DNA of 20,339 nt. Origin: a virus. The translations under genes and the position numbers were made by a program. The notes under the pieces are model-generated. The model made no database searches and had not been told where the DNA came from. It was given only the letters and a program-made list of their open reading frames with translations. Location: the IMG/VR virus record IMGVR_UViG_3300030085_001506, positions 1,453-21,791 of that record; one strand, given 5' to 3'. The first letter of the stretch is position 1. Each line of letters opens with the position of its first letter. This document shows positions 4,223 to 8,708 of this stretch, piece after piece.

Positions 4223-4458
4223 TGCAAGCATCAATTTATTCTAACGGTAACCAAGAATGTGAGAGAGCATCGTCTCTTCTGAGGGCAGTTCATCTTGACG
4301 AAGTAGTTGTGTACAAACTTGATAAGCATTTCACCGAAAAGCAATTCAGAGATGAGTTTGGTGATGAGGGAGAATACCCTATGATTTCTATTGGTATGTT
4401 TCGAGGCACACTAAAGGAAACCCTCAACCATATGAGTAAAGAAGGAATGTTTTTGTAG
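4222..4458 (+). CDS. Glutaredoxin-like protein with a degenerate active site
   Basis: A 78-aa protein that aligns end to end with the glutaredoxin at 1109-1345: IYSNGNQEC against VYSKDGCPYC, YKLDKHFTEKQFRDEFG against YKLNRDYTREEFYDKFG, and EYPMI against TFPRV. The cis-proline is retained, but the first active-site cysteine is Asn (NQEC instead of CPYC), and the GGC of the glutathione site has become FRGT. It cannot act as a normal dithiol glutaredoxin. The single cysteine could be used in a monothiol fashion, or the fold may serve as a binding domain. It starts at a TAATG overlap and is the last gene of the small-gene cluster. Confidence 0.82.
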   Translation: MQASIYSNGNQECERASSLLRAVHLDEVVVYKLDKHFTEKQFRDEFGDEGEYPMISIGMFRGTLKETLNHMSKEGMFL

Positions 4459-4476
4459 CACAAGTTACAAAACTGC

Positions 4477-4505
4477 TTGACTATATAATGTATGTGGTCT
4501 ATAAT
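4477..4505 (+). promoter_or_regulatory. Strong sigma70-like promoter upstream of the riboswitch
   Basis: TTGACT at 4477-4482, a 17-base spacer and a perfect TATAAT at 4500-4505. The predicted start at about 4512 coincides with the first bases of the riboswitch, so the RNA would begin almost directly with the aptamer. This is the best consensus promoter in the window. Confidence 0.7.
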
Positions 4506-4512
4506 TAGACCT

Positions 4513-4565
4513 GTCGTTCATCCCTTCGGGGACGCAAGTAAGTCGCGGAACGGAGCGTTCATCCC
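4513..4565 (+). ncRNA. Glutamine-II (downstream-peptide) riboswitch
   Basis: The leader between the promoter and a very small gene carries the core of the downstream-peptide (glutamine-II) motif: CGTTCATCCC at 4515-4524, GGACGCAAGTAAGTCGCGG across about 4530-4548, and GGAACG at 4547-4552. Pairing supports it. P1 is CGTTC (4515-4519) with GAACG (4548-4552), and a UUCG-capped hairpin is CCC (4522-4524) with GGG (4529-4531). The likely ribosome site GGAG (4552-4555) lies just 3' of P1 and 10 bases before ATG 4566, so control is probably translational. The class binds L-glutamine and is known from cyanobacteria and cyanophages upstream of short reading frames, which is what follows here. Recognition is from memory of the motif, not from a covariance-model search. 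Confidence 0.82.
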
Positions 4566-4727
4566 ATGTTTGATCTATTACTTTATGCTGATATCAATTG
4601 CACTGATGCTGCTGAAATAATCAGTCGTCTCGATGCTCATGATCATATGAGTAATGAAATCAAGGTAGAACTTGTTGAAACTATTCAAGAAGCAACACCT
4701 CATTGTCCATGGGACGCAAACGACTAA
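4566..4727 (+). CDS. Small riboswitch-controlled 'downstream peptide' (53 aa)
   Basis: A 53-aa protein directly behind the glutamine-II riboswitch. It begins MFDLLLYADINCTDAAEII and ends ATPHCPWDAND. It is acidic, has two cysteines (residues 12 and 47) and no membrane segment. Short proteins of this type follow the downstream-peptide motif in marine picocyanobacteria and their phages, which gave the RNA its name. In freshwater cyanobacteria a related glutamine riboswitch controls a glutamine-synthetase inactivating factor. By analogy this protein may adjust nitrogen assimilation in the infected cell, but it has no visible similarity to such a factor. The ribosome site is GGAG at 4552-4555. 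Confidence 0.78.
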   Translation: MFDLLLYADINCTDAAEIISRLDAHDHMSNEIKVELVETIQEATPHCPWDAND

Positions 4728-4769
4728 AGGAACGGGCCTAAAAATCCAACTACTTTAGGAGTACCTACA

Positions 4770-4937
4770 ATGAATACACTCAATCTGATTAAAAAGCAGA
4801 TCAAAAAAGCTGCTGCACTTCACGACGCTCAGATTTCTCACACCTCATATCGTGGTGTTGAGTATGACACACGTTGTGTAGAGAGTAAGGAAACCCACGG
4901 TACATTCTGCTATCGCGGTAAGACTTATACTAAGTGA
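4770..4937 (+). CDS. DUF4278-like small protein (55 aa)
   Basis: A 55-aa basic protein with a good ribosome site (AGGAG at 4757-4761). The C-terminal part contains two YRG motifs (SYRGVEYD at about residues 26-33 and YRGKTYTK at 48-55) typical of DUF4278, a small domain of cyanobacteria and their phages with no established function. The N-terminal 20 residues form a Lys/Ala-rich helix (LIKKQIKKAAALHDAQ). It lies 42 bases after the riboswitch-controlled gene with no promoter or terminator visible between, so both probably share the transcript. Confidence 0.75.
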   Translation: MNTLNLIKKQIKKAAALHDAQISHTSYRGVEYDTRCVESKETHGTFCYRGKTYTK

Positions 4938-4965
4938 TTGACTTACGACTATAATATGATAGAAT
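4938..4965 (+). promoter_or_regulatory. Candidate promoter for the 4989 gene and thyX
   Basis: TTGACT at 4938-4943 and TAGAAT at 4960-4965 are 16 bases apart. A TATAAT at 4950 and a TATGAT at 4955 also lie here, so the exact -10 is uncertain. The start would fall at about 4967-4972, within the left arm or loop of the terminator hairpin that follows. Confidence 0.45.
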
Positions 4966-4988
4966 GGGAGGGTAACCTCCCATTTTTT
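4963..4988 (+). terminator. Rho-independent terminator directly before a start codon
   Basis: A 9-bp perfect stem (AATGGGAGG at 4963-4971 with CCTCCCATT at 4976-4984), a GTAA loop and a six-T run (4983-4988). The next base begins ATG 4989. It would end the riboswitch/DUF4278 transcript. Its position relative to the promoter and start codon copies that of the terminator at 442-466. Confidence 0.8.
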
Positions 4989-5168
4989 ATGGATAGAGAT
5001 AAACTAAAGCTAATAGTTAGAAACTTAAAGCTTCTTGTCGATGCTCTTGAATCAGAGGTATACTCTGATGTGGATGCATACAAGGCAGAGAACTTTGATG
5101 ATCCTCCAACAAACTACATAACCGATTACGACGAAGTATTTGATGACGATGACGGATACCCTGATTAA
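4989..5168 (+). CDS. Small acidic protein of unknown function (59 aa)
   Basis: A 59-aa protein. I chose ATG 4989 because the longer frame (from TTG 4938) would run through the promoter and the terminator hairpin. The first 25 residues form an amphipathic helix (KLKLIVRNLKLLVDALESEV). The rest is very acidic (TDYDEVFDDDDGYPD), so it resembles a small nucleic-acid mimic or an adaptor, though that is only a guess. It overlaps thyX by 20 bases. No ribosome site is present at normal distance. Confidence 0.6.
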   Translation: MDRDKLKLIVRNLKLLVDALESEVYSDVDAYKAENFDDPPTNYITDYDEVFDDDDGYPD

Positions 5169-7776: not shown

Positions 7777-8364
7777 ATGCCTTTTGATGCCTATAAACAA
7801 TACCTCTCTTTAAAGAATCACTTTACTAAAGAGAAGTATGACTACCACAAGTATTGTGGAAAGAGTCGTGCGACTGTACAATCTTTCTACAAGAGAAAGG
7901 ATCGCTTTTGGTTTGAAAAATTAGCAAGAAATAAAAACGATAAAGAAGTTATTGAGTTCTTTGTATCTAACTTTATCACCTGCACTGATCCGAGTAAGCT
8001 TTGGATAGGAGAAATGATACGCGAAGGTGAGGGTAGATATACTTCATGGAAGAAAAGAACCCAGTCTCTTTCATACGTTTTTAAAGAAGAGATGGAAAAA
8101 ATTCTTGCAGGAACTGATTTAGATTCTGCATTTACAAGTTCTACTGGACATCCACCAGTATTGAAGAAGTATTTAAGTGGTCAAATCTCCATTGAGACTC
8201 TGGTTATATGTGATAAAATTCTTGGATATCGAACTGACTATGACAAAAAACTAACAGACCCAGTATGGGAAACTGTTAGTCTGCGAATGAAGAAGTATTC
8301 TCCATTCCTAAATATCGATGTATTCCGTTACAAAAAAATCTTGAGGGAGGTCGCGTTACAGTAA
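7777..8364 (+). CDS. 59: gp59-like loader of the replicative helicase
   Basis: A 195-aa protein similar to T4 gp59 (217 aa), which binds forked DNA and gp32 and loads the gp41 helicase. Matching stretches include YLSLKNHFTKEKYDYHKY with T4 YLMIKQHMNGKYDVIKY, KRKDRFWFEKLARN with KRRDKYFFQKLSEK, and the C-terminal LRMKKYSPFLNIDVFRYKKI with IKLKAYRKILNIDSQK. The protein is all-helical and basic, as expected. GTG 7774 is immediately followed by ATG 7777; ATG is used. The stop overlaps the next start (TAATG). Confidence 0.92.
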   Translation: MPFDAYKQYLSLKNHFTKEKYDYHKYCGKSRATVQSFYKRKDRFWFEKLARNKNDKEVIEFFVSNFITCTDPSKLWIGEMIREGEGRYTSWKKRTQSLSYVFKEEMEKILAGTDLDSAFTSSTGHPPVLKKYLSGQISIETLVICDKILGYRTDYDKKLTDPVWETVSLRMKKYSPFLNIDVFRYKKILREVALQ

Positions 8365-8708
8365 TGAGTTTCTTTGACTCTGAGGTTGTCCGTGCTGAGA
8401 TGACCGAAATAAGTGAGCTACAGGAAGATGTTTACCGTAACGTCTTCAAATTTCCTACAATGGACAGAGAAGAAAAACTTTTTCATGTTGGACTTCTGGA
8501 AAAACTCATAGAGAAACAAAAAGTTCTCTATACTCGTCTGAGTTTATCTGATGATCCAGAAGCAAAACTTATGAAAAAGAATATCATCGATTCTGCTCAA
8601 ATGATGGGTCTCTCATCAGAAGTTGATATGAATGTTGTTTTCTCAAACATGTCACAAATGCTTGAAGTGATGAGAAGTCAGATTGACAAAGGTGACCCCA
8701 GCCTTTAG
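8364..8708 (+). CDS. DUF1825-like protein of cyanobacterial type
   Basis: A 114-aa, mostly helical, acidic protein. Its start MSFFDSEVVRAEMTEI and the following helices (KLFHVGLLEKLIEKQKVLYTRLSLSDDPEA) resemble DUF1825, a family found in cyanobacteria and in cyanophages. The C-terminus is rich in Met (NMSQMLEVMRSQ). No activity is known. T4 has no equivalent between genes 59 and 32, so this is a cyanophage addition inside a conserved block. It is coupled to gp59 by TAATG and is followed by a 48-base leader before gp32. Confidence 0.75.
   Translation: MSFFDSEVVRAEMTEISELQEDVYRNVFKFPTMDREEKLFHVGLLEKLIEKQKVLYTRLSLSDDPEAKLMKKNIIDSAQMMGLSSEVDMNVVFSNMSQMLEVMRSQIDKGDPSL

Follow-up and report, generated by a model that had tools for sequence, protein, structure and literature searches.

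A putative double glutamine riboswitch, nested and closed round small genes, in cyanomyovirus genomes

The window considered here, i.e., the whole analysed stretch of 20,339 nucleotides from IMG/VR virus record IMGVR_UViG_3300030085_001506, is a cyanomyovirus fragment, Kyanoviridae-like, in which neighbouring genes match those of Kyanoviridae, namely talC, nrdC, thyX, phoH and T4-like tail genes. The original prediction placed a 53-nt class-II glutamine aptamer at 4513-4565 and a promoter at 4477-4505 starting RNA right at it. Both Rfam glutamine families do match at this place, and the features assigned to the locus by the present analysis, all on the plus strand, are as follows.

4455-4468, +: NtcA-type box GTAGCACAAGTTAC (GTA-N8-TAC), conserved in relatives.
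4477-4505, +: promoter, TTGACT (4477-4482) and TATAAT (4500-4505), their position relative to CGTTC being fixed among relatives.
4496-4511, +: palindrome GGTCTATAATTAGACC overlapping the -10 box; 81% of relatives have arms of at least 5, compared with 18% of shuffles.
4515-4519, +: outer P1, 5′ strand CGTTC, complementary to 4730-4734 and covarying with it (C-G or T-A).
4521-4532, +: outer P2 hairpin TCCC-TTCG-GGGA, with covariation between its strands in both the compact and the gene-bearing form.
4533-4540, +: outer J2/3 CGCAAGTA, class-I loop-E-type strand, as aligned with the consensus of RF01739 in L093, a relative without ORFs.
4541-4545, +: P3, 5′ strand AGTCG, common to both predicted aptamers, pairing with 4721-4725.
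4548-4560, +: inner P1, composed of GAACG (4548-4552), loop GAG (4553-4555) and CGTTC (4556-4560), based on covariation.
4562-4568, +: inner P2, 5′ strand TCCCATG, which includes the embedded gene's start codon and pairs with 4708-4714 across the ORF.
4566-4727, +: embedded gene in the inner P2 loop, encoding a 53-aa two-cysteine small protein (phrog_504).
4708-4714, +: inner P2, 3′ strand CATGGGA, encoding the C-terminus of the protein and pairing across the ORF.
4715-4720, +: inner J2/3 CGCAAA, conserved in 242 loci.
4721-4725, +: P3, 3′ strand CGACT, covarying with AGTCG.
4724-4728, +: switching strand CTAAA, which includes the stop codon and can pair alternatively with 4754-4758.
4726-4728, +: outer J3/1 AAA (mostly GAA in relatives), overlapping the stop codon TAA at 4725-4727.
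4730-4734, +: outer P1, 3′ strand GAACG, based on covariation and on RF01739 alignment of an ORF-less relative.
4754-4761, +: TTTAGGAG, competing strand TTTAG (4754-4758) overlapping the Shine-Dalgarno sequence AGGAG (4757-4761).
4770-4937, +: downstream gene of 55 aa, DUF4278-like (phrog_545; PF14105, E 8.8e-5, 23.2 bits, cut-off 25.3).

The second half of the element was spotted by eye, with CGTTCATCCC immediately 5′ of the ATG of the 53-aa ORF and GGGACGCAAACGACTAAAGGAACGGG at the ORF end. DNA resembling this locus is present in about 440 cyanophage records, and the full element was found in more than 240 distinct loci and in each of the 15 isolates inspected, whose hosts are Synechococcus or Prochlorococcus, so that an assembly error is dismissed. 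Relatives retrieved via the embedded protein alone, with RNA ignored, have identical flanks wherever the contig extends far enough. Spacing between the halves is bimodal in 304 distinct units, corresponding either to a short hairpin or to a gene of about 50-75 aa. Classified by gene content, 238 distinct loci comprise 169 where the second hairpin alone contains a gene, 57 with genes in both hairpins, 1 with a gene in the first alone and 11 with none, these proportions not being population frequencies since the loci were collected mostly by sequence pattern.

Four strands alternate along the element in the order CGTTC (4515), GAACG (4548), CGTTC (4556) and GAACG (4730). The original prediction paired the first of them with the second; covariation gives another arrangement. 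Strands 2 and 3 are complementary in all 245 loci, including 66 where they read CAACG and CGTTG, a matched flip from G-C to C-G that preserves 2-3 pairing and breaks both 1-2 and 3-4. Strands 1 and 4 match each other in every one of the 227 loci scored, five of which combine CGTTT with AAACG (T-A), again with 1-4 pairing preserved. On the gene tree, the flip accounts for 24 state changes on each side, and supported independent changes agree 7 to 0 (p = 0.016), with the caveat that short genes yield weak trees and that phage recombination can inflate such counts. The halves are linked by P3, which is represented by AGTCG/CGACT in 212 loci, AATCG/CGATT in 14, ATTCG/CGAAT in 3 and AGTCG/CGATT in 6, its second pair being G-C in 219 cases, A-T in 14, G-T in 6, T-A in 3 and unpaired in none. 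Matched flips and P3 covariation across the halves therefore argue for a nested fold consisting of outer P1 (1-4), P2, P3, inner P1 (2-3) and inner P2. As shown by covariation, the predicted outer aptamer encloses a circularly permuted second copy, with P3 common to both. Under energy rules without ligand, the double aptamer is less stable than other folds, reaching -28.0 versus -35.2 kcal/mol in L093 and -62.5 versus -68.2 kcal/mol in the window.

Two other arrangements were tried and rejected. A single 53-nt aptamer fails as the partner of strand 1 (4730-4734) sits past the ORF. Tandem class-II pseudoknots with CTRAA/TTYAG as class-II P2 fail as matched flips fit nested pairing alone; the first clue here came from five apparent exceptions, and a wider sample then showed the matched flips. 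A second type of linker, CGCAAGTAAGCCGACTC / CGCAAAAGCCGACT, was observed in P-SSM4, MED4-213 and S-SSM7 (L383, L384 and L380), slightly different in S-SSM7, and may represent a longer P3 with two C-A mismatches.

Attribution of the element to one of the two known classes of glutamine aptamers was addressed using covariance models and the letters of individual segments. In the window, RF01739 (class-I, glnA) aligns to 4513-4556 with 25.7 bits (cut-off 35), covering the half-site only, and RF01704 (class-II, Downstream-peptide) to 4512-4559 with 23.4 bits (cut-off 33); the single-family RF01739 search of the 21.8-kb virus record gave E = 2.4e-5. Thus, the Rfam check suggested along with the original prediction returned both families at the site, with neither score passing its cut-off. 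Scores are low because the 162-nt ORF splits the element in two, and this split, gene-bearing architecture explains the poor performance of standard models. ORF-less relatives, aligned to RF01739 across both halves, score 43.6 and 38.4 bits against the cut-off of 35, the first value belonging to L093 (no genes in loops; E = 1.3e-8), where the alignment includes P3. The cut-off of RF01704 is passed, among ten relatives scanned, by L113 only (34.0, gene-less inner half). The contig of L093 with its ORF-less double glutamine aptamer at 8338-8450 also carries a PhotoRC-II RNA (RF01717, 57.1 bits) at 1021-1116.

The outer path, CGUUCA-P2-GACGCAAGUA-P3-RAA-GGAACG, reproduces the order of the class-I glnA aptamer. 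Its P1 strands CGUUC and GAACG are those complementary in all scored loci, T-A variants included; the P2 hairpin, covarying in compact and gene-bearing forms, comes straight after CGUUCA; and the covarying P3 has the loop-E-type flanks AAGUA and GAA, with J2/3 represented by CGCAAGUA and J3/1 by GAA in 164, AAA in 77 and CAA in 1 of 242 loci. J2/3 reads CGC here versus CGG in class I. The inner part follows the permuted order GGAACG-loop-CGUUCA-P2-CGCAAA, meeting the other end of P3. As for class-II traits, the pocket strands of the solved class-II RNA (CGUUC, CGC and GAACGG) occur in both halves, and the base pair flipped in phages is the one found less conserved in the paper describing that RNA (PMC6698751). 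Control of DUF4278 genes or other short ORFs also finds its counterpart, as the downstream ORF matches PF14105 just under the cut-off, while the class-II pseudoknot, pairing CGUUC with GAACG of the same half, is mismatched in 66 loci. The outer structure is that of a class-I (glnA) glutamine aptamer, with glutamine binding predicted from its letters. Of the complete 53-nt class-II aptamer proposed originally, the glutamine type is supported, whereas completeness and class are not, the 3′ strand lying 210 nt downstream, past a gene. The 53-nt RNA is only a part of the element, and a binding test on it addresses the wrong pairing.

By covariation, the inner P2 helix, and in many relatives the outer one as well, is closed across a whole gene. 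The outer P2 loop is occupied by a gene of 65-75 aa in 57 of 238 relatives, and the first five pairs of gene-spanning P2 are formed in 88.7% (outer) and 95.4% (inner) of cases, as compared to 26-63% for registers slid by 1-3 bases; cognate strands out-pair 2000 of 2000 shuffles. Pair 3 of the first hairpin is C-G in 25 loci and T-A in 11, with 0 mismatches; either side of the gene tree shows 7 changes of this pair, and in 3 of 3 supported cases they occurred jointly. The stop codon of the outer gene sits inside the outer P2 helix, its partner strand being upstream of the start codon, and the two match each other: TAA goes with TCTT (8/8), TGA with TCTC (7/7) and TAG with TCC (16/16). Since the choice of stop codon is neutral for the protein, this correspondence is strong evidence for a role at the RNA level. 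Where the genes start and end likewise conforms to the helices. For inner P2, covariation is weak within the main gene family alone. Coding constraint as the sole cause of conservation in the 3′ half was considered and rejected, given that the core is invariant though the stop precedes it in most gene-bearing outer aptamers.

The embedded gene, having its likely Shine-Dalgarno sequence GGAG (4552-4555) within inner P1, evolves under purifying selection (median dN/dS 0.32; 0.32 and 0.13 for the genes), with third codon positions varying most. Its products have exactly two cysteines in 210 of 210 cases, 34-40 residues apart, and a hydrophobic N-terminus, and 208 of 210 fall into one linked cluster. 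Both embedded families, inner and outer, are predicted to form two-helix hairpins, with a weak resemblance between them (profile E = 0.001, probability 22%). The inner-gene profile had no match in hosts, and the outer-gene profile gave one clear genome (G187) and one marginal match. G187 contains two copies of the outer family (L390 and L392 around 1456; E 3.5e-20), which have a signal-peptide-like start and are not accompanied by any glutamine aptamer in their vicinity, and the aptamer is therefore no by-product of the coding sequence. The pattern of the phage junction found 0 matches across 201 host genomes, and matches from a loose-pattern scan of bacterial genomes were mostly due to chance; the host search was centred on one Synechococcus MAG, itself among the loose-pattern matches.

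Upstream of the element, both parts of the promoter proposed originally are conserved before CGTTC in 134 distinct relatives, the -35-like motif at -39 to -36 (107 matches) and the -10-like motif at -15 to -13 (102 matches), this conserved sigma-70-like position implying an RNA start no more than a few bases away from the aptamer. The inverted repeat at the -10 box keeps its position and varies in sequence among relatives, and is possibly an operator with varying specificity; in P-SSM4 and S-CAM22 NtcA-box-like repeats are seen at this site. Of 135 distinct relatives, 98 have GTAN8TAC upstream of the aptamer at a distance of at most 100 nt, as against a mean of 7.5 and a maximum of 16 in shuffles. 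NtcA sites in cyanophages were reported earlier in general terms (PMC3037559). The phage boxes are mostly about -53 to -61 from the aptamer, upstream of -35, versus about -19 in hosts, where the box is found in 31 of 31 loci examined. Such a shift from the host-like overlapping to the upstream position suggests activation instead of repression.

On the other side, the downstream gene, whose equivalent in phage P-TIM40 is annotated as DUF4278, appears to be exposed to a competing helix. CTRAA, combining the P3 end, the stop codon and J3/1, is complementary to TTYAG located just before GAG. CTAAA occurs only with TTTAG, while CTGAA is found with TTCAG or TTTAG, and the combination of CTAAA with TTCAG was never seen among the relatives compared. 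R-Y covariation of this helix on the tree is expressed in supported independent changes agreeing 9 to 0 (p = 0.004). The competing helix and the predicted aptamer are mutually exclusive. Folding calculations gave no clear change in access, the downstream Shine-Dalgarno sequence being unpaired with 0.35 in the free state versus 0.38 with aptamer strands taken, and a local CCTAAA/TTTAGG hairpin in the window could mask it in both states. A subset of loci (L002 1792-1860, L007, L016, L029, L055, L062 and others) contains, between GGAACGG and TTYAGGAG, a hairpin insert of the type ACGGATCC-hairpin-GAGAAGGTT or its variant CGGATCAC...AAAGGAG; this insert, flanked by the outer P1 strand on one side and the Shine-Dalgarno sequence on the other, may be another RNA element. 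At 4938-4990, 3′ of the DUF4278-like gene, promoter-like TTGACT...TAGAAT is directly followed by a terminator-like hairpin TGGGAGGGTAACCTCCCATTTTTT.

In cyanobacterial hosts, RF01704 is present in 126 of 201 Cyanobiaceae genomes, and DUF4278 genes sit behind compact class-II riboswitches of ON-type (type-2), i.e., glutamine switches them on (PMC6316151). The link to small proteins and nitrogen state, anticipated originally, is thus borne out in the phage by the NtcA box and the DUF4278-like gene; the permuted aptamer, the loop gene, the helix that competes at the ribosome site of the downstream gene, and the box itself had been missed.

Taken as a whole, the locus is best described as a double glutamine riboswitch around one or two small genes, with a class-I outer and a permuted inner aptamer having P3 in common, to which we assign a probability of about 0.75. 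Both halves would bind glutamine, since each contains the known binding-site bases. In the glutamine-bound state, CTRAA would be held by P3 and J3/1, blocking the competing CTRAA/TTYAG helix, which otherwise would mask the Shine-Dalgarno sequence of the DUF4278-like gene; this gene would then be on, its sign being presumed from host genes turned on by glutamine. The same closed fold would trap the embedded gene's start region within inner P1 and P2, switching this gene off. A ribosome on the embedded gene would in turn unfold the sensor and stop inside the switching strand, so that translation and glutamine sensing are proposed to be mutually exclusive. The chances are about even that the complete scheme holds, namely, that two aptamers, one permuted inside and with a helix in common, close round whole genes, that the ligand joins start to stop, turning the embedded gene off and the downstream gene on, and that translation of the loop gene erases the sensor.

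The nested RNA might be real and regulate translation without glutamine sensing, responding to another ligand, to a protein or to coupling by the ribosome only. CGC in place of the class-I CGG in J2/3 and a half-site under both Rfam cut-offs in the window speak for this, as does the placement of a stop codon and a Shine-Dalgarno sequence in competing helices, enough alone for translational coupling; we nevertheless regard it as unlikely, as the class-II pocket strands are kept in both halves (PMC6698751), ORF-less relatives exceed the class-I cut-off, and gene content together with the NtcA box points to nitrogen. Less probable still are two independent tandem aptamers (1-2 and 3-4) with class-II-like pseudoknots, the second one split by the gene. 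Each half alone scores weakly for RF01704 and RF01739, host aptamers before DUF4278 genes are class II, and the canonical letters are compatible with such pairing in 179 loci; in the 66 others, however, both P1 helices would acquire C-C and G-G mismatches where nested pairing is perfect, P3 covariation joins the halves, and the class-I model spanning both of them scores far higher. That the repeated junction serves mainly as a recombination handle for swaps of small genes, with the RNA fold as by-product, is the most doubtful of all: near-identical flanks do enclose gene variants of differing length and sequence, and outer genes are present in some loci and absent from others, but a DNA handle needs no compensatory changes at five helices, matched stops or a helix competing for a Shine-Dalgarno sequence, and the embedded proteins hold together as one cluster with invariant cysteines.

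The double riboswitch favoured here may be set against systems already known. Group I introns are structured RNAs carrying a gene in a peripheral loop; the phage element is without splicing, and its start and stop codons are parts of helices. With class-I glnA (RF01739) it has in common the order and letters of P1, P2, J2/3 (AAGUA), P3, J3/1 (GAA) and GGAACG, differing in that P3 holds a permuted second aptamer, P2 loops hold whole genes, J2/3 has CGC instead of CGG, and the ends in the window are about 200 nt apart. Pocket strands and the downstream DUF4278 gene, glutamine-ON in the host type (PMC6316151), are those of class-II (RF01704), whereas the supported phage fold has no pseudoknot and host copies span 60-70 nt with no gene inside. 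Tandem riboswitches (glycine; tandem glnA, PMC2864571) likewise have two aptamers per leader, which may steepen the response; these are consecutive, while the phage ones are nested with a common helix. In the literature outside Klahn 2018 and Ames and Breaker 2011, we encountered neither a riboswitch aptamer described as containing a gene nor a glutamine aptamer permuted in nature.

The element described here would be a natural aptamer that is both permuted and nested. The usual description of a riboswitch aptamer is that of a compact leader ahead of a gene; here the putative aptamer contains the gene, and this is repeated across hundreds of abundant ocean viruses. Small-protein genes of phages, along with a relative of cyanobacterial glutamine-synthetase inactivating factors, would thus be tied to two nitrogen signals, 2-oxoglutarate via NtcA and glutamine via RNA, and the part played by nitrogen sensing during cyanophage infection becomes directly testable.
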